Assembly (NCBI GenBank): GCA_026991395.1
Contig: JALXBP010000152.1
Coordinates: 1 to 32,626, forward strand
Reading direction: 5' to 3'
Length of the DNA: 32,626 bases
Source: Anaerolineae bacterium
GTDB taxonomy: Bacteria; Chloroflexota; Anaerolineae; B4-G1; SLSP01
The first letter of the stretch is position 1. Each line of letters opens with the position of its first letter. Shown here piece after piece: positions 1-10,038 of the stretch. The notes under the pieces were generated by a model. That model did no database searches and had not been told where the DNA came from. It saw only the letters and a list, made by a program, of their open reading frames with translations. Position numbers and translations under genes: made by a program.

Positions 1-2442
1 GTTCCTCGCATCCAACGTCGTTGTGTACTGTGCCGGGTTCCACGTGCCGAAGTCGGTGCTGTAGCCGCCGCGCAGCGTTACCGTCTTGCCGATGTAGGCG
101 ATTTGGCTGACGCCGTTGCGGGTGTGAGCGTCGGCGCATATGCCGGCCACTTTGATCAGGTCGCCGCTGGATGCCGCGTCCACCGCCTGTTGCACACTGT
201 GGTATTCGGCGGTGCTACCGTCGATGCGCACGTGGCAGTCGTGCAGGAAGGGCTGTAGCAGTGTAGTTGCGGTGGCGACGTTGCTCCCCCGTGCCGCCAG
301 GTGATTCTCCATCGGGAGAACGGCATCGCCGGAGAAGGCGGTGGTAATCCGGGCGGTGAGGGTGATGAGGGCGGCAGTGCCCGCCGGGATATCCGTCGGG
401 CCGCAGACCACCGTGCTGCCCCAAGAGTGAGCCTGGGTGCAGGTCATTGGTGGCGATACGGCGATGCTCAGTGGCCGCTGCCCGGTGGGCAAGGTGTCGG
501 TGATGCGCACGCCCAAAGCGGTGATGATACCGTTGTTGGGCACGAGGATAGTGTAGGTGATCATCTCACCGGGGTTGTAGAACTGATCGGCAGTCGCCTC
601 GACAGGCTGCAGGGCGGGGCCGTTGAGCGCCTCATCTGCGCCGATGTCGTAGCCGAGAGCCACGGGGCGTGGCTCGCCGTCGATGTCGGTCGTTACCCCG
701 GCGTTCACCCCGGCATCCACGGCGGCGGAGGTGGGGAGGATGTGGTAGTCGCCCGCATCGGGATCGACGAAGGCCGGGTCGCCCTGCAGGTTGACCGTGC
801 CGGTGGTGATGGTGCCCTTGCCGTCCCAGTCGGTGCCGTTGCCCCACAGGGTTGCTTGCAAGGTGGCTGTATTGCCTGTCGTCACGCTGATACCCACCGT
901 GTGGCCGACCAGAATGGTATCGGTCAGCACAGCGTGGCTGGACGCGCTGGGAAGGTTTGTGATGCAGATGCCTGAGCTTCCGTCGTTGCGGGCCAGCGTG
1001 AGATGGCGCAGGACGGGAGATGAGCCTTCGAGATACAACCCGCTGCCGTCCGAGGCCACATTGTCGGCCACGATGTCGTTCCGCAGCTCGGCGTCGCTGC
1101 CCTTCAGGTACAGCCCGCCGCCGTGGCTACTGTAGCCGTAGGGGTTGGAAGCAATGTTGCCGATGATAGTGTTGCCCGTCAGTGCGGCGTCGCTGCCCTC
1201 CAGGTACAGCCCGCCGCCGTACGAGGCGGTGTTGCTCACGATGGCGTTGCCCGTCAGCGTAGCATCGCTGCTGCTCAGACGCAGCCCGCCGCCCTCATAG
1301 GCGGTATTGCCCACGATGGTATTGTCCGCCAACGTGGTGTTGCTGCTGTAATATACTTCAATCCCCCCGCCGCTACCGGAGGCGGTGTTGCTCGCGATGG
1401 TGTTGCCCGTCAGCGTAGCATCGCTGCTGCTCAGACACAGCCCGCCGCCCTCATAGGCGGTATTGCCCACGATGGTGTTGTCCGCCAACGTGGTGTTGCT
1501 GCTGTAATATACTTCAATTCCGCCGCCGCCACCAGCGGCGGTGTTGCTCACGATGGTGTTCCCCATCAGCACGGCGGCGCTGCTCAACAGGGCCAGTCCG
1601 CCGCCGCCACCGGAGGCAGTGTTGCTCACGATGGTGTTGTTCCCCAGCGTGACATTGCCGCTGTAGTACAGGGATAGTCCCCCGCCGAGGTTAGCTGTAT
1701 TGCCACCGATCTGGTTCCCCATCAGCACGGCGGCGCTGCTCCACAGGGCCAGTCCTCCGCCGTCGGAGGCGGTGTTGCTCATGATGGTGTTGTTCATCAA
1801 AGTGGCGTTGCTCCATCCAAAGTACATCCCGCCGCCGCTGTCGGAAGTGATATTGCTCACGATGCGGCAGTTGCTGATGGTGACCGTGGCGGTGGCGACG
1901 TACACCCCGCCGCCGATGTTATAGGACCACGGAAGATCCCCCCGCAGTCCGGTGGCATCGCCGTTGATGAGAGAAAAGCCTTCCATCGTCGGCGTAATGT
2001 CGCCGGTAATGTAGAGCACGCGCCCTGCGCCTTGGGCATCCAGCGTCGTCGTGTATTGTGCCGGGTCCCACACGCTGAAGTCGATGCTGTAGCCGCCGCG
2101 TATGATGACGGTTTTGCTGATGTAAACGACCTGGGTCACGCCGTTGCGGGCGTGGATGTCGGTGTAAACACCCGTAGCGACGTGGATTTCGTCGCCTGCA
2201 GCAGCCCGATCGACGGCGTACTGCACCGTGAGGCAAGGCGAGAGGGCCGTTGTGCAATCGCCGCCGTCGCTCCCCCTCGGCGCAACGTAGCGGATGGCGC
2301 TTCCGGGAGCCGTGGGCAGAGCGGGGCTTGCGCCCTCGTGCGGGGCTGAGGGGGTCGCCGTCGTCGGCAGCCAGGACAAGGACAGAACGATGAACATTGC
2401 TGCCGAGGTCAGGATGACCGGCAGGGCTTTTCTGATGCTCAT
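1..2442 (-). CDS. Secreted giant beta-helix protein with DUF11 domain (partial, 3' end off window)
   Basis: The frame is open from ATG 2442 to the window edge: 814 codons with no stop. The start is chosen because a purine-rich Shine-Dalgarno (GGAGAGGAGAGGGA) precedes it directly and a signal peptide follows (MSIRKALPV, then a hydrophobic stretch to about residue 30). Residues about 75-130 are a lead-in seen in extracellular parallel beta-helix proteins (IIRGGYSIDF). Residues about 160-490 hold some 14 imperfect repeats of about 26 residues with the pattern GNTIVSNTA..GGGL, a right-handed parallel beta-helix of the polymorphic outer-membrane/adhesin type. About 530-600 resembles the choice-of-anchor Q region (GDPAFVDPDAGDYHI; DIGADE). 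About 605-720 is a DUF11 domain (YNPGEMITYTILVPNNG). About 735-814 repeats the lead-in, so a second helix probably follows outside the window. Likely cell-surface or secreted; substrate unknown. Its own promoter lies at 2672-2700. Confidence 0.9.
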   Translation of the reverse strand, partial: MSIRKALPVILTSAAMFIVLSLSWLPTTATPSAPHEGASPALPTAPGSAIRYVAPRGSDGGDCTTALSPCLTVQYAVDRAAAGDEIHVATGVYTDIHARNGVTQVVYISKTVIIRGGYSIDFSVWDPAQYTTTLDAQGAGRVLYITGDITPTMEGFSLINGDATGLRGDLPWSYNIGGGVYVATATVTISNCRIVSNITSDSGGGMYFGWSNATLMNNTIMSNTASDGGGLALWSSAAVLMGNQIGGNTANLGGGLSLYYSGNVTLGNNTIVSNTASGGGGGLALLSSAAVLMGNTIVSNTAAGGGGGIEVYYSSNTTLADNTIVGNTAYEGGGLCLSSSDATLTGNTIASNTASGSGGGIEVYYSSNTTLADNTIVGNTAYEGGGLRLSSSDATLTGNAIVSNTASYGGGLYLEGSDAALTGNTIIGNIASNPYGYSSHGGGLYLKGSDAELRNDIVADNVASDGSGLYLEGSSPVLRHLTLARNDGSSGICITNLPSASSHAVLTDTILVGHTVGISVTTGNTATLQATLWGNGTDWDGKGTITTGTVNLQGDPAFVDPDAGDYHILPTSAAVDAGVNAGVTTDIDGEPRPVALGYDIGADEALNGPALQPVEATADQFYNPGEMITYTILVPNNGIITALGVRITDTLPTGQRPLSIAVSPPMTCTQAHSWGSTVVCGPTDIPAGTAALITLTARITTAFSGDAVLPMENHLAARGSNVATATTLLQPFLHDCHVRIDGSTAEYHSVQQAVDAASSGDLIKVAGICADAHTRNGVSQIAYIGKTVTLRGGYSTDFGTWNPAQYTTTLDARN
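9..195 (-). repeat. Diverged in-frame duplicate of the lead-in module (copy 2; copy 1 at 2037-2226)
   Basis: This segment and 2037-2226 align with only a one-codon length difference. They encode parallel peptides: RNGVSQIAYIGKTVTLRGGY here and RNGVTQVVYISKTVIIRGGY in copy 1, both ending in a PAQYTTTLDA motif. The duplication shows that the protein is built of repeated module sets (lead-in, helix, DUF11). A second beta-helix is therefore expected beyond position 1. Confidence 0.8.
1229..1540 (-). repeat. Two tandem 156-bp repeats inside the beta-helix gene
   Basis: Positions 1229-1384 and 1385-1540 are near-identical direct copies with a 156-bp period, exactly 52 codons. Each encodes two beta-helix turns. 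The copies differ at only a few positions for most of their length and diverge near the junctions. The period keeps the reading frame, so copy number can change without breaking the protein. Shorter 78-bp units with lower identity flank them across about 1100-1850. Confidence 0.85.
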
Positions 2443-2832: not shown

Positions 2833-5800
2833 ATGAAAGCGTTTCTGTTCCCCCAGTCGTTAGGCGAGATCGATCCGGAGATGGACGATCTCATCAAGTT
2901 CGAGGCCGCCAGGCAGAAGCGAAAGCTGGTGATGGTGCCCTCCGAGTCGTTAGCGCCCACCGGTGTGCATCAGGCGCTCGGTTCCGTCTTCTCCCACATC
3001 TACGCCGAGGGCTACCCGGACGAGCGCACGCGCACGATGACCGAGGAGGAGATCCTCGACTACGAGCACGAGCTGGGGCACTACCGCCGCTACAGCGACC
3101 CCCGCTACTACAAGGGCGTCGAGTACGCCGACATTCTGGAGGCGCTGGCCCGTCGCCGCGTCGCCGAGGTCTTCGCCACGGCGAAGGTCCCCGCCGACAA
3201 GCTCTTCGTCAACGTGCAGGCCCTCTCCGGCGCACCGGCGAATACCGCCGTTCAGTACGCCCTCCTCAAGCCGGGCGATACGATGATGGCGATGGCGCTC
3301 CACGTCGGCGGCCACCTCAGCCACGGCAGCAAGGTGGCCTACTCCGGCAAGACCTACAACGTCGTCTACTACAGCGTGGACGAGAAGACGGAGCGGCTGG
3401 ACTACGACGCCATCCGTGCTCTGGCGCTGGAGCACAAGCCGAAGCTGATCATCGCCGGATACACCTCCTACCCCTGGGCACCGGATTGGGAGAAGTTCCG
3501 CGAGATCGCCGACGAGGTCGGGGCCTACCTGCTGGCCGACATCGCGCACGTCGCCGGTCTGGTCGCGGCGGGTGCCTTCCCCTCGCCGGTGGGGATCGCC
3601 GATGCGGTAACCTTCACCACGCACAAGACCTTCAACGGGCCGCGCGGGGCGGTCATCATCACCCACAGCCGCAAGCTGGGACGCAAGTTCGACCGCGCCG
3701 TCTTCCCCGGCCTGCAGGGCGGGCCGCATATGGAGGCCATCGCCGGGATCGCCGTCGCCGCCAGGCTGGCGAAGACGGAGCAGTTCAAGGCGCTCCAGCA
3801 CCAGACGGTGGCCAACGCCAGGGCGCTGGCCGAGGCGCTGGAGGAGGAGGGGATTCGCGTTCCCTACGGCGGCACGAACAGCCATATGCTCCTCATCGAC
3901 TGCAAGCCGATCAAGGGGCCGGACGGTACGCCGCTGATGGGCGATCCCGCCGCCCGCATCCTCGACCTGGCGGGCATCGTCGCCAACCGCAACACCATCC
4001 CCGGTGATACGACCGCCGCCTATCCCTCCGGCGTCCGCTTCGGCACCCCTTGGCTGACCCAGCGCGGCTTCCGCGAGCCGGAGATGAAGCGCTTGGCGAA
4101 GTCCATCGCCAAGCTGCTCAAGGCGACACAGCCCTACGAAGTCCCGGCGAAGAAGGGGCACGACTATCGCGCCCGCGTCGATTTCGACGTGCTGGAGGAG
4201 GTCAAGCTGGAGATCGCCCAACTCGCCGAGGAGGCCGGCTGCTACGAGAACGTCGAGCGTGCCGAGGTCGGCTACCCGCACTTCTACTTCATCACCGACG
4301 AGCCGCAGGGGAAGGGCGCTTACGAGCGGCTGGAGTTGGACGGTCGGCTCGCCAAGCCCTTCGTGGACTGGTTGACGCCCTCCGATACGGCGGATATGGC
4401 CGACGGCGAGAGCCGCCCCGTCACCCTGCTGGAGCGCGACGGGACGCCGATGAGCGCCGCCATCCTCACCCGCGTGGACGGGCAGCACTACCTCCTCGAC
4501 GTGCCGACGGCGAAGGCCCCGCGCGTGATGACCTGGCTGCGCGAGCTTGTGGACGGCTACGTCGCCACCGATGATGTCTACGGTCGGCTTCCCTTCCTCA
4601 ACGCCGTGCGCGACAAGGGCGAGGCCCCCGCGCCCGCCGAAGCGCCGCAGGTCGAGGAAGGCCCCTTCACCAAGCCCTACTTCATCGGCGCGTGGAGCCG
4701 CAAGGAGCCTGCCGGTGAGCCGCTCCCCCGCTTCACCTGGGAGGAGAAGGAGGATGCCCCGCTGCGCAAGACCCGCCTCCACGACGTCCACGTGGAGATG
4801 GGGGCGCGGATGGTCCCCTTCGGCGGCTGGGATATGCCCGTCTGGTACACCGGCAACCTGGAGGAGCACCGCGCCGTCCGCGAGGCGGCGGGCCTCTTCG
4901 ACGTGAGCCATATGGGCTGCTGGGACGTGCGCGGCCCGGAGGCGGCGGCCTTCCTCAACACGGTGATGGTCAACGACATCAACCTGCTCAAGGTCGGGCA
5001 GTCGCAGTACTCCGCCTTCTTCGATGTGGACGGGATGCCGATCGATGACCTGATGGTCTATCGCCTCGGCGAGGAGCACTACCTCGTCGTCGTCAACGCC
5101 TCGAACAACGACAAGGACTGGGCCTGGGTCAACGCCGTCCTCGAGGGCGAGGTGATGATCGACGCCAACCGCCCGTGGGTCAAGTGGCAGGGGAAGGGTG
5201 TCGAACTCCGCGACCTGCGCGATCCCGCCGTCGGAGCCGACCAGCGCCACGAACTGGCGCTCCAGGGGCCGAAGTCGCGCGACATCCTGATGGCGCTCGG
5301 TGGCAGCAAGGAGGACCTGGCGAAGATCAAGAAGCTCCCCTGGGCGGGGATCGCGCACGTAACCTTGGGCGGCTTCGATCTCTACGTCAGCCGCACCGGC
5401 TACACGGGCGAGCGTATCGCCTACGAGATCTTCGTCCACCCCGACAAGATCGTCGACCTCTGGTGGGCGCTGCTGGAGGCGGGCAAGCCCTTCGGCCTCA
5501 AGCCCTGCGGCCTCGCCGCCCGCGACAGCCTCCGCCTGGAGGCCGGACTGCCGCTCTACGGCCACGAGATGGCCGGGCACTTGGGGCTAACGATGGGCGA
5601 TGCCGGCTTCGGCACCTACGTCAAGTGGTACAAGCCCTTCTTCGTCGGGCGCGAGCCGTACATCAAGCGCGAACTGAAGCGCAAGGCGGTCGTTACGCGC
5701 TTCCGCGTGCCGGAGAAGGGGCAGCCCAAGCCGGAGCCGACCGACAAGGTCGTGGACAAGCGCGGCAAGGTCGTTGGCTACGTAACGAGCTGCGCCATCG

Positions 5801-5994
5801 ACAGCGAGGGCTACCTCCTCGGCCAGGCCTATCTGAAGACGAAGGCCGCCGCCGAGGGGACGGAACTCTTCGTCCTCGTGACGCCGCGCCGCAAGCCCAA
5901 GCCGCAGGACAAGCTGAAGATGGGCGATCGCACCACGCTCCCCGTCCCCATCGTCGTCCTGAGCAAGTTCCCCAAGCGGAAGAAGAAGAAGTAA
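2833..5994 (+). CDS. glyA-gcvT: Serine hydroxymethyltransferase / aminomethyltransferase (GlyA-GcvT) fusion
   Basis: A 1053-residue bifunctional protein. Residues 1-440 are SHMT, a PLP enzyme converting serine + THF to glycine + methylene-THF: LSGAPANTAVQYALL, ADIAHVAGLVAAG, and the PLP-lysine motif TTHKTFNGPRG with K265. An insertion of roughly 25 residues lies between YAEGYP and YKGVEYAD compared with textbook SHMT. Residues 441-644 are a linker region of about 200 residues that I cannot assign; part of it (about 510-600) looks folded, and a proline/alanine-rich stretch follows. Residues about 645-1053 are the glycine-cleavage T protein: FGGWDMPVWY, LFDVSHMG, NASNNDKDWAWV with the expected catalytic Asp, SRTGYTGE and ARDSLRLEAGLPLYGHEM. 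The tail is lysine-rich (KRKKKK). ATG 2833 is preferred over an in-frame upstream start because AAAGGAGAG lies just before it and SHMT homology starts there. The fusion would couple glycine cleavage to serine synthesis. No gcvP or gcvH is in the window. Confidence 0.95.
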   Translation: MKAFLFPQSLGEIDPEMDDLIKFEAARQKRKLVMVPSESLAPTGVHQALGSVFSHIYAEGYPDERTRTMTEEEILDYEHELGHYRRYSDPRYYKGVEYADILEALARRRVAEVFATAKVPADKLFVNVQALSGAPANTAVQYALLKPGDTMMAMALHVGGHLSHGSKVAYSGKTYNVVYYSVDEKTERLDYDAIRALALEHKPKLIIAGYTSYPWAPDWEKFREIADEVGAYLLADIAHVAGLVAAGAFPSPVGIADAVTFTTHKTFNGPRGAVIITHSRKLGRKFDRAVFPGLQGGPHMEAIAGIAVAARLAKTEQFKALQHQTVANARALAEALEEEGIRVPYGGTNSHMLLIDCKPIKGPDGTPLMGDPAARILDLAGIVANRNTIPGDTTAAYPSGVRFGTPWLTQRGFREPEMKRLAKSIAKLLKATQPYEVPAKKGHDYRARVDFDVLEEVKLEIAQLAEEAGCYENVERAEVGYPHFYFITDEPQGKGAYERLELDGRLAKPFVDWLTPSDTADMADGESRPVTLLERDGTPMSAAILTRVDGQHYLLDVPTAKAPRVMTWLRELVDGYVATDDVYGRLPFLNAVRDKGEAPAPAEAPQVEEGPFTKPYFIGAWSRKEPAGEPLPRFTWEEKEDAPLRKTRLHDVHVEMGARMVPFGGWDMPVWYTGNLEEHRAVREAAGLFDVSHMGCWDVRGPEAAAFLNTVMVNDINLLKVGQSQYSAFFDVDGMPIDDLMVYRLGEEHYLVVVNASNNDKDWAWVNAVLEGEVMIDANRPWVKWQGKGVELRDLRDPAVGADQRHELALQGPKSRDILMALGGSKEDLAKIKKLPWAGIAHVTLGGFDLYVSRTGYTGERIAYEIFVHPDKIVDLWWALLEAGKPFGLKPCGLAARDSLRLEAGLPLYGHEMAGHLGLTMGDAGFGTYVKWYKPFFVGREPYIKRELKRKAVVTRFRVPEKGQPKPEPTDKVVDKRGKVVGYVTSCAIDSEGYLLGQAYLKTKAAAEGTELFVLVTPRRKPKPQDKLKMGDRTTLPVPIVVLSKFPKRKKKK

Positions 5995-6021
5995 CGGGCG
6001 CGCGCATCCGTCCGACATCGG

Positions 6022-6050
6022 CGCAGGCGAGGGTATCCCCCTCGCCTGCG
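6022..6050. terminator. Hairpin between convergent glyA-gcvT and lipoprotein gene
   Basis: A perfect 12-bp stem (CGCAGGCGAGGG / CCCTCGCCTGCG) with a 5-base loop lies 27 bases past the glyA-gcvT stop. On the plus strand it is followed by TGCTTTC, a poor U-tract; the minus strand has none. It probably acts as a shared terminator or RNA 3'-end stabiliser between the two converging genes. Confidence 0.6.
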
Positions 6051-6077
6051 TGCTTTCGGGTGCAGAGGAAGGCTCTC

Positions 6078-7112
6078 TCACGGCGTGGCCGACCGGGGCT
6101 GCCAGCGGGGCGAAGTCCCCTCCGTCAGTCGCCGGGGCTGCCCGCCCTCGACCCAGTCGAAGCGGTAGATGGCGAGGTCGGGCCACTGCCCGGCGTCGAA
6201 GACGACCCATCGGCCGTCGGGCGACCAGGAGAAGAGGCCGACGTTCTCCTGCCGGAACTCGGCGGGCAGTCGCTCCAGCACCGCCTCCCGGTCATAGCGG
6301 GGCGGGAGCTTTGCCACCGGTTGCGCTTCACCGAAACCCTCGCCCTGGCAGGGAAGCGCCCACAGCGAGCGGTGCCCCTCCTGCCGCGCCTCGTCCCAAT
6401 CGAGCCGCTCGTAGACCAGCCGTCCATCGGGCAGCCAGACCCTGGGGAAGTAGAGGACCTGGGCCGTGCCCTCCAGGAGCGTCTGCGGCGCTTCCCCGTC
6501 CATCCGCAGGACGGCCAGGCTCACCGAATCCAGCGGCTCGATGGAGATCGGCTGCTCCAGCGGCTGACGTAACCCGATCGCCAGATAGCTCCCGTCGGGA
6601 GACTAGGCGTAGCCGATCGCCTCCACTTCCCGCACGACCTGCCCGTCGGCAACCTCGACGATGCGCAGTGCGCGCACCAGTCCCGTACCGCTATCGAGCA
6701 CGAGGTAGCGGCCATCGGGCGACCAGACGAGTCGGGAGAGCCGTTCGTCGGCAGGGCCGATGACGCGGCGTTGCCGGGTCGAGAGATCGCAGAGCACGGC
6801 CTGCCGCGCTTCGCTCCCCGCCTCCTGCCCGATGCAGGCCAGCGTCTGCCCGTCGGGCGACCAGGCGAGCGCGGAGACCTCCTCCTCCTGGACCAAGGGG
6901 CGGCGGTTCTGTCCGTCCGCATCCATCACCCAGAGCCGCCGATCCAGGTCCAGGTAGGCGATCAGCCCGGGGGAAGGGGCGGAGGCCCCATCCGTCGTCG
7001 GCGTCATCGTGGCGGAAGGGGCCGAGGGCGTGGACGCCGGGGCACAGCCTCCCAGCGAGAGCGCAAGCGCCAGGCCGATGATGATGGTTCCGATAACCTT
7101 CATCCTGTGCAT
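6078..7112 (-). pseudogene. TolB/WD40-like beta-propeller lipoprotein interrupted by an amber codon
   Basis: ATG 7112 has the ribosome site GGGGGAGGT just upstream. The product starts with a lipoprotein signal (lipobox LGGC, Cys23). WSPDG-type propeller motifs follow: LAWSPDGQTLA, LVWSPDGRYLV, then YA-stop-SPDGSYLA, and later FSWSPDGRWVV. At 6605-6603 (codon 170) the frame reads TAG exactly where the motif demands Trp (TGG), a single G-to-A change. The frame stays open and protein-like on both sides, to a TGA at 6080-6078 (344 codons in all). As it stands the gene would give a 169-residue truncated lipoprotein of about half a propeller. Alternatives are a sequencing error or amber read-through; other genes here end in TAG, so TAG is a normal stop. 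Its promoter is at 7145-7173. Confidence 0.85.
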
Positions 7113-7144
7113 CTTGACCTCCCCCAAGTCAGGTTTGCATGCCT

Positions 7145-7173
7145 GTCATAGCATCTGTTATGACTTTTGTCAA
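7145..7173 (-). promoter_or_regulatory. Promoter with palindromic operator for the lipoprotein gene
   Basis: Minus strand: -35 TTGACA (7173-7168), 17-base spacer, -10 TATGAC (7150-7145). A perfect inverted repeat GTCATA-8-TATGAC (7145-7164) covers the -10 and most of the spacer. A dimeric repressor bound there would block polymerase; no regulator gene lies next to it. Confidence 0.55.
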
Positions 7174-7190
7174 GACCCGGCACGGCAGCT

Positions 7191-7337
7191 TGCTATTTTG
7201 TTCGTGGCAATGACGGCAAGACTCCGGTCGTGGCCCCTCTCATTCCCGCAGGACGAGCTGGGGATGGGCGAGCGTATCACGTACACGTACCCCTTCCTCA
7301 TCGTCGTCCCGAGCAGTTCCTCGGACAGAAGAAGTAG
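7191..7337 (+). pseudogene. Decayed remnant of a gcvT 3' end
   Basis: The plus strand at 7191-7316 reads AILFVAMTAR..., then PQDELGMGERIT and PFLIVVPS. It matches the C-terminus of the GlyA-GcvT protein upstream (ELFVLVTPRR, PQDKLKMGDRTT, PIVVLS). DNA identity is high around CCGCAGGAC.AGCTG..GATGGGCGA. A one-base deletion near 7315 shifts the frame. Restoring it gives F-L-G-Q-K-K-stop (7317-7337), against F-P-K-R-K-K-K-K-stop in the intact gene. About 49 codons remain, without a start. It is followed 13 bases later by a strong terminator in the same orientation, so it once ended a real plus-strand gene. It is not an active gene. Confidence 0.75.
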
Positions 7338-7349
7338 CGGACTAACGTG

Positions 7350-7384
7350 AACCGCCCCCTGACCACACAGGGGGCGGTTTTCTG
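7350..7384 (+). terminator. Strong intrinsic terminator (orphaned behind the gcvT remnant)
   Basis: The stem AACCGCCCCCT/AGGGGGCGGTT-type (core 7351-7360 with 7369-7378, loop GACCACAC) is followed by TTTTCTGT on the plus strand. No intact plus-strand gene ends before it; only the gcvT remnant does. The same stem, with another GGGGGCG/CGCCCCC pair in 7385-7435, may also halt the minus-strand glycerol operon, whose last gene ends at 7436. The minus side has only a short T-tract. Together with the promoter and the remnant this accounts for the non-coding stretch 7113-7435. Confidence 0.8.
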
Positions 7385-7435
7385 TGTCGAAGGGGGGCGT
7401 TTTCCGCCGCGGCTGCGCCCCCGCCCGGCGTCTGT

Positions 7436-7762
7436 TCAGCCCAGTCGCAAGATGGCGAAGGTCAGATAGAGGCCGTAGCCGAGGAGGAGCAGCCCCACGA
7501 TGACGAGCGCCGTCGTCAGCCGACGGGCGGCGCGGGCCGGAAGCCCGGTATCCAGCGCGATGGAGCGCACGCCCATCAGCATATGGACGATGACGACGAC
7601 GAGGAAGGCCACCTCCCAGACGACGACCCAAGGCCGCTGCATGTAGGCGATGACGTCGGCGTAGGTGCGCAACCCACCCTCGGCGATGAAGTGCTGTTCG
7701 ACCATGTGCAGGCCGAGCAGGATGACGAGGAGTATGCCGCTTACGGCTTGCCAGAACCACAT
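7436..7762 (-). CDS. SdhD-like cytochrome b membrane anchor
   Basis: 108 residues with three membrane segments (about 5-25, 44-68, 80-104). His19 at the end of helix 1 and His60 in HMLMGVRSIALD of helix 2 sit where succinate dehydrogenase anchors bind haem b. The H-x3-G-x-R pattern is typical of the SdhC/SdhD family. ATG 7762 follows GAGGAGG and lies 12 bases after the previous stop, so it is the last gene of the operon. With the gene before it this makes a six-helix anchor of the two-subunit, possibly di-haem type. In context it is inferred to carry electrons from the iron-sulfur subunit to quinone. Assignment as D rather than C is only by order. Confidence 0.8.
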   Translation of the reverse strand: MWFWQAVSGILLVILLGLHMVEQHFIAEGGLRTYADVIAYMQRPWVVVWEVAFLVVVIVHMLMGVRSIALDTGLPARAARRLTTALVIVGLLLLGYGLYLTFAILRLG

Positions 7763-7774
7763 CGTGTTACCTCC

Positions 7775-8170
7775 TCAAGCCAGGGTGATGATGCCCCACA
7801 TCGCCGCAGCGGTGAGGAGCAGGGTCAGCGCGAAGACCAGCCAGAAGAGCCGTGCCTGTGCCTTCGTCCCGTAGCCGAAGCCCAGCGCGATGACGCGCAG
7901 CCCGTTGAAGGCGTGGAAGAGCAGGCCGAAGATGAGCAGCGCGTCGAGGGACCAGTAGAAGGGCGTGTGGGCACTTTCGATGAAGGCGTTGTAGGTCGCC
8001 TCGCCGATGAGGAGCTGGCGAAGCATGTAGAAGTGCAGCAGCAGGTAGAGCGCCAGTCCAAGGCCGGTCAGGCGCATCAGGATGAAGGCCAGCCAGCCCT
8101 CGCGGCGGCCCCGATAGTCCAGCCAGACCATCGCCTTCTGCAAGCGGGTGTGTTCTTTGGCTTCGATCAT
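7775..8170 (-). CDS. SdhC-like cytochrome b membrane anchor
   Basis: 131 residues with three membrane segments (about 27-50, 72-98, 107-130). Candidate haem ligands are His46 (LLLHFYML) and His86 in HAFNGLRVIALGFG, the classic H-x2-N-G-x-R motif of succinate dehydrogenase/fumarate reductase anchors. The start follows TAGGAGGCGGAC, whose TAG is the stop of the upstream iron-sulfur gene, so the two are probably translationally coupled. It pairs with the 108-residue anchor downstream. No SdhA-type flavoprotein is encoded nearby; the flavoprotein of this operon is GlpA-like. Confidence 0.85.
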   Translation of the reverse strand: MIEAKEHTRLQKAMVWLDYRGRREGWLAFILMRLTGLGLALYLLLHFYMLRQLLIGEATYNAFIESAHTPFYWSLDALLIFGLLFHAFNGLRVIALGFGYGTKAQARLFWLVFALTLLLTAAAMWGIITLA

Positions 8171-8179
8171 GTCCGCCTC

Positions 8180-8863
8180 CTAATGGGGAACCTTTTTCGT
8201 CAGCAGGTAGCGACGGAGCATGCCGATCGCCCCGGAGGGATCGACCCAGGAAGGGCAGACCTCGGTGCATTCCATCGCCGAATGGCAGCGCCAGGCACCG
8301 TGCTCGTCTCCGGCCAAAGCGCAGACGGCAGCGAGGTCGCGTCCGCGCGGCTCCTGGAGCAGGCGGAGCATCATCGCCAGCGGGGCGGGGCCTTGGTAGA
8401 ACTCGTCGCTGCCGACGATGGGGCAGGCCGAGATGCACAGCCCGCATTCGATGCAGTCTTCGAAGCGCATTCCCTCCCCCTCGCCGGGCGTCAGTTCGTC
8501 GCGGCGGACGTAGGCGGCGTGGATGGCGTCCATCCGCTGCATCAGCGGCGTCATATCGACGACCAGATCGCCGACCCAAGGGAAGTTGCGCAGCGGCTCC
8601 AGGGTGATCTCCGCCCCGTCGGCGAAGTCGGCGACGGGGGTGATGCACATCAGCCGCTCACGTCCGTCGATGCGCACGCCGCAGAGACCGCAGGAGGCGT
8701 GATGACAGGCGTGGCGGAAGAGGATCGTCTGATCCTGCTCGGCCCAGACCTTGTGGACGGCGTCGATGATGTTGGCCTTCTCGTCCACCTCCACCTCGTA
8801 GGTGCGGTAGGTCAATCCCTTTTCGGGCGTGCCCCGTGCGATGCGCAGCTTGAGCCTCTTCAT
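8180..8863 (-). CDS. SdhB/FrdB-like iron-sulfur subunit
   Basis: 227 residues, close to the usual SdhB length. The N-terminal plant-type ferredoxin domain has C53, C58, C61 and C73 (ACHHASCGLCG; LMC). The C-terminal domain has C137, C140, C143, C147 (CIECGLCISACP) and C193, C199, C203 (CHSAMECTEVCP). These are the ligands expected for one [2Fe-2S], one [4Fe-4S] and one [3Fe-4S] cluster, followed by the SdhB-like PSWVDPSGAIG. It lacks the CCG domains of GlpC, so it is of complex II rather than HdrD/GlpC type. Its ATG overlaps the stop of the GlpA-like gene (ATGA, 8863-8860), after GGGAGGTGAGCG. I infer that it takes electrons from that flavoprotein. A true succinate dehydrogenase with SdhA encoded elsewhere is the alternative. 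Confidence 0.9.
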   Translation of the reverse strand: MKRLKLRIARGTPEKGLTYRTYEVEVDEKANIIDAVHKVWAEQDQTILFRHACHHASCGLCGVRIDGRERLMCITPVADFADGAEITLEPLRNFPWVGDLVVDMTPLMQRMDAIHAAYVRRDELTPGEGEGMRFEDCIECGLCISACPIVGSDEFYQGPAPLAMMLRLLQEPRGRDLAAVCALAGDEHGAWRCHSAMECTEVCPSWVDPSGAIGMLRRYLLTKKVPH

Positions 8864-10038
8864 CGCTCACCTCCCAGGCGGTAGTAGGCGTGGTAGGGCA
8901 GCAGCTCGACCTCCTTCGTGCGACAGGGCACGTCCACCCCGACCGCCTCGCCGATGAAGTTGGCCATCTGCTCGGCCATGAAGCGGGCCGTCGTCGTTTT
9001 GCCGCCGACGATGGAGAACAGCCCCTCCACGCCGTCCCTGGCGTGATTGAAGGTGTAGGTGCCGCGCGAGAGCCAGCGCTCGTTCCCCGCAACGACGCCG
9101 CCCGTCTTCACCAGCGGACGCGCCGCCGCCGAGACGCCGCGCACGGGGGCTTGATTGAAGTCGGGGACCATCTCCTGGGCGCGGCGGAGCATCAGTTGGA
9201 AGTCGTGATCGGGGATGGGGATGAAGTCCGGGTCTTCCACCCTCCAGGAGGTGGTGCCGATGACGGAGGCGCGGCGCTGGGGGACGATGATGTCCCCGTC
9301 TCCGGGCATATTCAGCCGGTTGATGACGTGGCGCGTCCAGCGACGGGCGACGGCGACCATCACCCCCGCCGTGGGGACGACGCTGAGGTGCAGCCCCGCC
9401 ATCGCGGCGATCCGTCCGGCCCACGGCCCGGCGGCGTTGATGACGAAGTCCGCGCCCAGCTCGTACTCCTTGCCGCTGCGCCGATCGCGCACGTGAACGC
9501 CGGTAACCGTCCGCCCCTCCCAGGTGAAGTCGAGGACCTCGGTGTAGGTGTAAACCTTCGCGCCGTTGGATTTCGCCGTGGCGAGGAAGGCCAGGGCGAA
9601 GTGGAAGGGGTCGAAGACGCCATCGTTGACTTTGACGGCGGCGAGGATATTCGGATTGAGGTTCGGCTCCATCCGCAGCGCCTCCTGCACGTCGATCTCC
9701 TGCGCGGGGACGCCGCAGTTGGCGCAGGCTTCCAGGAAGCGATCCTTGTAGCTCAAGTCCTCCTCGTTGAAGGCGACGAAGAGGCCGCCGTTCAATTCCA
9801 GCAGGCCCGGCATAATGCGCCGCACGATGGCGTTGTCCTCGGCGCATTCGCGGGCGGCCTCCGGATCGCGCATTGCGTAGCGGCCTCCCGAATGGAAGAG
9901 GCCGTGATTGCGTCCGGTCGTTTCGGAGGCGACCTCGCCCCGCTCGACGACCGTGACGCGGTAGCCGCGCAGGGTCAAGTCGTGGGCGAGGGCTGCGCCG
10001 GTCGAACCGGCACCGATGATCAAGGCATGGAATCCCAT
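8860..10038 (-). CDS. glpA: GlpA-like FAD-dependent glycerol-3-phosphate dehydrogenase, short form
   Basis: 392 residues. The FAD Rossmann motif is at residues 9-14 (GAGSTG). The stretch TTGRNHGLFHSGGRYA and the phrases INAAGPWAGR, VINRLN, GTTSWR and GGKTTTARFMAEQ follow anaerobic GlpA of E. coli closely. It oxidises sn-glycerol-3-phosphate to DHAP and passes electrons toward quinone. E. coli GlpA is about 540 residues and has a C-terminal BFD-like [2Fe-2S] domain; this protein ends before it. GlpB and GlpC are not present; an SdhB/C/D-type module follows directly with a 4-base overlap. Start ATG 10038 follows GGAGGTTGGA, 32 bases after the dhaM stop. Relatives such as LhgO share the fold, but the glycerol operon and GlpA-specific motifs favour this call. 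Confidence 0.88.
   Translation of the reverse strand: MGFHALIIGAGSTGAALAHDLTLRGYRVTVVERGEVASETTGRNHGLFHSGGRYAMRDPEAARECAEDNAIVRRIMPGLLELNGGLFVAFNEEDLSYKDRFLEACANCGVPAQEIDVQEALRMEPNLNPNILAAVKVNDGVFDPFHFALAFLATAKSNGAKVYTYTEVLDFTWEGRTVTGVHVRDRRSGKEYELGADFVINAAGPWAGRIAAMAGLHLSVVPTAGVMVAVARRWTRHVINRLNMPGDGDIIVPQRRASVIGTTSWRVEDPDFIPIPDHDFQLMLRRAQEMVPDFNQAPVRGVSAAARPLVKTGGVVAGNERWLSRGTYTFNHARDGVEGLFSIVGGKTTTARFMAEQMANFIGEAVGVDVPCRTKEVELLPYHAYYRLGGER

Follow-up and report, generated by a model that had tools for sequence, protein, structure and literature searches.

A decayed direct copy of the gcvT 3′ end beyond an intact glyA-gcvT gene in an uncultured Chloroflexota lineage

Downstream of an intact, fused glyA-gcvT gene we found a decayed copy of the 3′ end of gcvT at 7246-7340 on the plus strand, identified through alignments, shuffles and codon-position counts. 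The relic comprises approximately 31 codons of gcvT, the stop codon and three further bases. Judged from sequence comparison, it is best read as a direct copy of the gcvT tail, truncated and without function, that arose in this lineage and has apparently decayed neutrally, a reading to which we assign a probability of roughly 0.78.

The window, by which we mean the whole stretch of 32,626 nucleotides analysed, is one contig (C152) of a source genome of 2.46 Mb in 153 contigs. According to the titles of the best-matching contigs, the nearest relatives in our set are metagenome-derived members of the Chloroflexota that bear the labels Anaerolineae, Thermoflexales, Thermoflexia or Chloroflexi. 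The family set searched (n = 24) includes no second genome of the window's genus, the genus label occurring once, for the source genome itself. The window proteins were searched against 18 loci of relatives with very unequal flank lengths, 17 from the family and one from the class. Because its contig ends inside gcvT, one locus (L076) was excluded from the comparison of gcvT ends.

The glyA-gcvT gene (2833-5994, plus strand) is intact and encodes both an SHMT and a GcvT domain (Pfam SHMT, 1.7e-120; GCV_T, 3.2e-88; also recognised by NCBIfam). It forms a single frame of approximately 1050 aa, and the fusion is conserved in the family at approximately 69-75% identity. Long open frames at the gcvT matches of more distant relatives suggest that the genes are fused there too; a literature search for a glyA-gcvT fusion in Chloroflexi returned no matching paper. 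On the other side of the gene, a large open frame on the minus strand (1-2442) opens with a signal-peptide-like stretch, contains numerous imperfect repeats approximately 78 bases long and runs off the contig end; its product presumably resembles a surface beta-helix protein. The second direct repeat of the window (8-134 and 2036-2162) was set aside, as it lies inside this one large repeat protein.

Local alignment of 7140-7400 with 5750-6100 produced one strong match, which pairs 7246-7340 with 5902-5997, a segment made up of the terminal 31 codons of gcvT, its stop codon and three bases. The repeat is direct, with both copies on the plus strand, and 77 of the 102 aligned columns are identical. 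The alignment score was 77, compared with a mean of 18.6 (sd 2.3, maximum 30) for 2000 dinucleotide-preserving shuffles, none of which reached it. The match has an E-value of 9.1e-11 in its own genome, where no other place passes 0.001 as a further copy of the gcvT tail, and of 1e-12 in the window. Within the window the relic is the second-best place for the gcvT end, with a wide margin over all others; along a 63-base stretch of that end, the relic as it stands matches at 44/63 bases and the next best place at 36. A chance likeness of GC-rich sequence, in favour of which only the short length of the match can be cited, is ruled out by the shuffles (0/2000, none getting to half of the score) and by the E-value of 9e-11, and we regard its probability as negligible.

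A sequence-only reading of this DNA had aligned 7191-7337 with some 45 codons of the gene and had named a pairwise alignment as one check, to be failed by scores no better than those of shuffled sequence. The stretch 7246-7340 passes that check. Because 7191-7245 aligns no better than shuffles, we set the length of the match at approximately 31 codons instead: taken alone, 7181-7245 scored 8.5 against 5800-5901, with a shuffle mean of 8.49 and 50% of the shuffles equal or better. Under softer scoring the alignment of the relic extends both ways, though 7181-7245 alone stays at the shuffle level. The edges of the homology are sharp, with nothing significant 5′ of 7246 and nothing past 7340 (the latter by eye). 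The core of that reading, namely that the 3′ end of gcvT is present a second time as a relic and that the two ends flank a lipoprotein gene as direct repeats, is borne out by these alignments.

The reading frame of the relic is broken: its translation changes frame, and the alignment of the tail contains gaps of 1, 4 and 2 bases. A single deleted base had been proposed to bring the tail into line; what we found was these three gaps together with a 6-base unit that stands in two tandem copies inside the relic (7278-7289, plus strand), a doubling that is probably due to slippage. When one of the two units is omitted, the relic matches gcvT at 52/63 bases without a gap. Over the 21 codons compared, changes between the relic and its own gcvT fell on codon positions 1/2/3 as 4/4/1 in the best-scoring alignment, as 4/5/2 when one tandem unit was skipped and as 4/4/3 with the insertions placed in codon phase. 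When the own gcvT is compared with those of the relatives, third positions carry the most changes in 16/17 cases (the exception is L073, with 10/5/9). Because the changes in the relic do not favour third positions, unlike those in 16 of the 17 relatives, they carry no signal of coding constraint; with counts this small (9-11 substitutions), the result argues against a period as a working gene, though a coding phase of the copy before its decay would be compatible with it. Had mutations struck both copies, more third-position changes would be expected than are seen (P approximately 0.02-0.11, p = 1/2), which counts against our reading. The relic is predicted to make no working protein.

These observations bear on one of the origins offered by the sequence-only reading, in which a full second gcvT, or glyA-gcvT, once stood in tandem and was mostly deleted, leaving its last codons. 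The relic lies close to gcvT in the same orientation and includes the stop codon, as the tail of a gene would. Because nothing is left upstream of the last 31 codons and the changes show no coding constraint, we consider a lost full copy quite unlikely. The own genome holds a single gcvT, a weak extra match (E = 0.09) sitting within the same fused gene. A protein search for the gcvT tail gave a match in 20/24 family genomes, at one place in each; it also misses the relic in its own genome and is thus blind to decayed relics. The better test for decayed tails is a DNA self-search, which covered the 1.1-6 kb available downstream of gcvT in 16 family loci and found no second tail beside gcvT in any of them, the other matches being 15-25 bases long (L064, L065, L068).

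To place the copy in time, we compared the relic with the gcvT ends of the relatives. It scores 77 against its own gcvT end, 11-28 against 16 ends from the family and 18 against the seventeenth (G002). Depending on gap placement, it shares 18-20 of 21 third-codon bases with the own gcvT, whereas the 17 relatives keep 5-13 of them; counted as differences from the own gcvT, this is 1-3 for the relic and 8-16 for the relatives. Because the relic is far closer to its own gcvT in third positions than any of the 17 relatives, the copy is lineage-specific: the third positions indicate that it derives from the gcvT of its own lineage, after the split from the compared relatives. At 7/9 sites at which the two copies differ, the own gcvT carries the commonest base of the family. 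One exception is codon 4, position 1, where 11/17 relatives have the base of the relic and 1/17 that of the own gcvT; at the other, codon 13, position 1, the base of the relic has a narrow majority (9 relatives against 8).

The favoured course of events would begin with a local, direct duplication of the last approximately 31 codons of glyA-gcvT after that split. The copy, which we infer to have been truncated at birth, would have been dead from the start and would then have decayed through neutral substitutions, small deletions and the one 6-bp slippage duplication. The lipoprotein gene may already have lain between the copies, may have arrived later or may have come together with one of them.

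That gene (6078-7127, minus strand) is of the TolB/PD40 beta-propeller type and was recognised from two ORFs in one frame with PD40/TolB hits. It carries an in-frame stop near 6603-6605, its frame is otherwise open, and homologues from the family and the order align across the stop; it is probably a pseudogene, or else the stop is an assembly or sequencing error. On the 3′ side of the relic lie two sdh membrane-anchor genes, an sdhB-like and a GlpA-like gene, all on the minus strand and running towards the relic; the last of the cluster is a succinate dehydrogenase membrane-anchor gene (7436-7762; Pfam Sdh_cyt, 1.3e-9). These sdh genes (7436-10038) follow the GlpA-like gene and not an ordinary SdhA, an order that is the same in a genome of the same family (G006). 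There, the GlpA-like/sdhB/sdhC/sdhD cluster is on a separate contig, and neither gcvT nor the lipoprotein gene was found beside it in the 7001 bases read.

A hairpin with a perfect 12-bp stem (7350-7361/7368-7379) separates the relic from the convergent sdh genes and can form on both strands (7350-7379; -30.3 kcal/mol on the plus and -28.1 kcal/mol on the minus strand, z approximately -4). The sequence-only reading had described a strong plus-strand terminator at 7350-7384 that was still in place behind the relic. The stem is as perfect as that description implies; the T run on the plus strand is short, and a terminator consensus scan, which needs 5 T in 8 bases, does not list the hairpin. That it is a terminator left in place by gcvT is doubtful, since it also stands at the end of the convergent sdh genes. 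Because the relic and the end of an sdh gene lie on either side, a terminator here is not unexpected; its inferred role is most likely to end the convergent sdh operon, and it may be an old gcvT terminator as well. Another hairpin, a perfect 12-bp inverted repeat at 6022-6050 (-37 kcal/mol, z -3.1), lies 3′ of the intact gcvT, in the interval where that gene and the lipoprotein gene converge, and the two hairpins differ from each other. Counted from the respective stop codon, the hairpin of the relic starts at base 13 and that of the intact gene at base 28. In a search for perfect stems, the gcvT hairpins of 7/17 relatives begin 9-38 bases past the stop, at 9-14 in L070, L083 and L178 and at 23-38 in four others; the same search found no hairpin in 10/17, several of which seem by eye to have imperfect stems. 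These distances do not tell which of the two hairpins is older.

The sequence-only reading had also suggested that the lipoprotein segment was inserted by recombination at gcvT, which is possible. In the form that we weighed, the segment recombined in at the gcvT 3′ end and brought the present end with it, so that the relic and the hairpin at 7350-7379 would be the displaced original. Some integrative elements target the 3′ end of a gene for insertion, and the end that they displace stays behind as a direct repeat; here, too, a direct repeat of a gene 3′ end flanks a segment. The relic's hairpin distance resembles that of the three relatives with 9-14 bases; the order gcvT-lipoprotein-sdh was seen only in the window, the 18 loci of the relatives having given glyA-gcvT alone; and in two family genomes (G005 and G013) the lipoprotein homologues and gcvT are on different contigs. 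Against this, and unlike in integrative elements, the segment measures 1.25 kb and holds just one broken lipoprotein gene with its flanks. No recombinase gene was found between or in the repeats, where the lipoprotein gene alone among the long frames searched gave family hits, and no long identical core was found, the longest exact stretches common to both repeats being approximately 10-12 bases; an older core could have decayed. A donor end would need third positions nearly identical to those of the own gcvT, and it is the present gcvT, not the relic, that has the commonest family base at most of the differing sites. None of the 18 loci shows the same neighbourhood, with or without the lipoprotein gene, and they thus offer no empty site, with gcvT next to sdh, for a comparison in either direction. 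We regard an insertion of the segment as unlikely. We consider very unlikely the fuller proposal, in which the gcvT 3′ end was a recombination target, today's gcvT would be chimeric and the relic would be what was displaced, namely the original tail followed by the terminator that belonged to it.

The strong hairpin after the relic could also mean that a function preserves the repeat, for example as an RNA element or a transcription-end signal. This hairpin is not part of the repeat and is unlike the one after the intact gene, the relic has decayed through substitutions and indels, and its DNA gave only short, chance-level matches in 79 relatives (best E = 0.005). We consider a retained function highly improbable.

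A truncated duplicate thus remains our preferred reading. The relic is real, its standing as a gene fragment is secure statistically, and fragments of this kind are known and ordinary. It matters little, being the trace that a small, local duplication left in a lineage of uncultured Chloroflexota. It illustrates that short copies of gene tails can be found by eye and can be separated from living paralogues by codon-position counts. Pseudogenes of prokaryotes have been surveyed (PMC522871, PMC9336565). Like the truncated duplicate pseudogenes of prokaryotic intergenic regions, the relic is short, non-coding and decaying and represents part of a nearby intact gene, with partial homology to that gene, a broken frame and, within small counts, no coding constraint. 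Nothing notable sets it apart from them, and the part that it represents is the 3′ end, including the stop codon.
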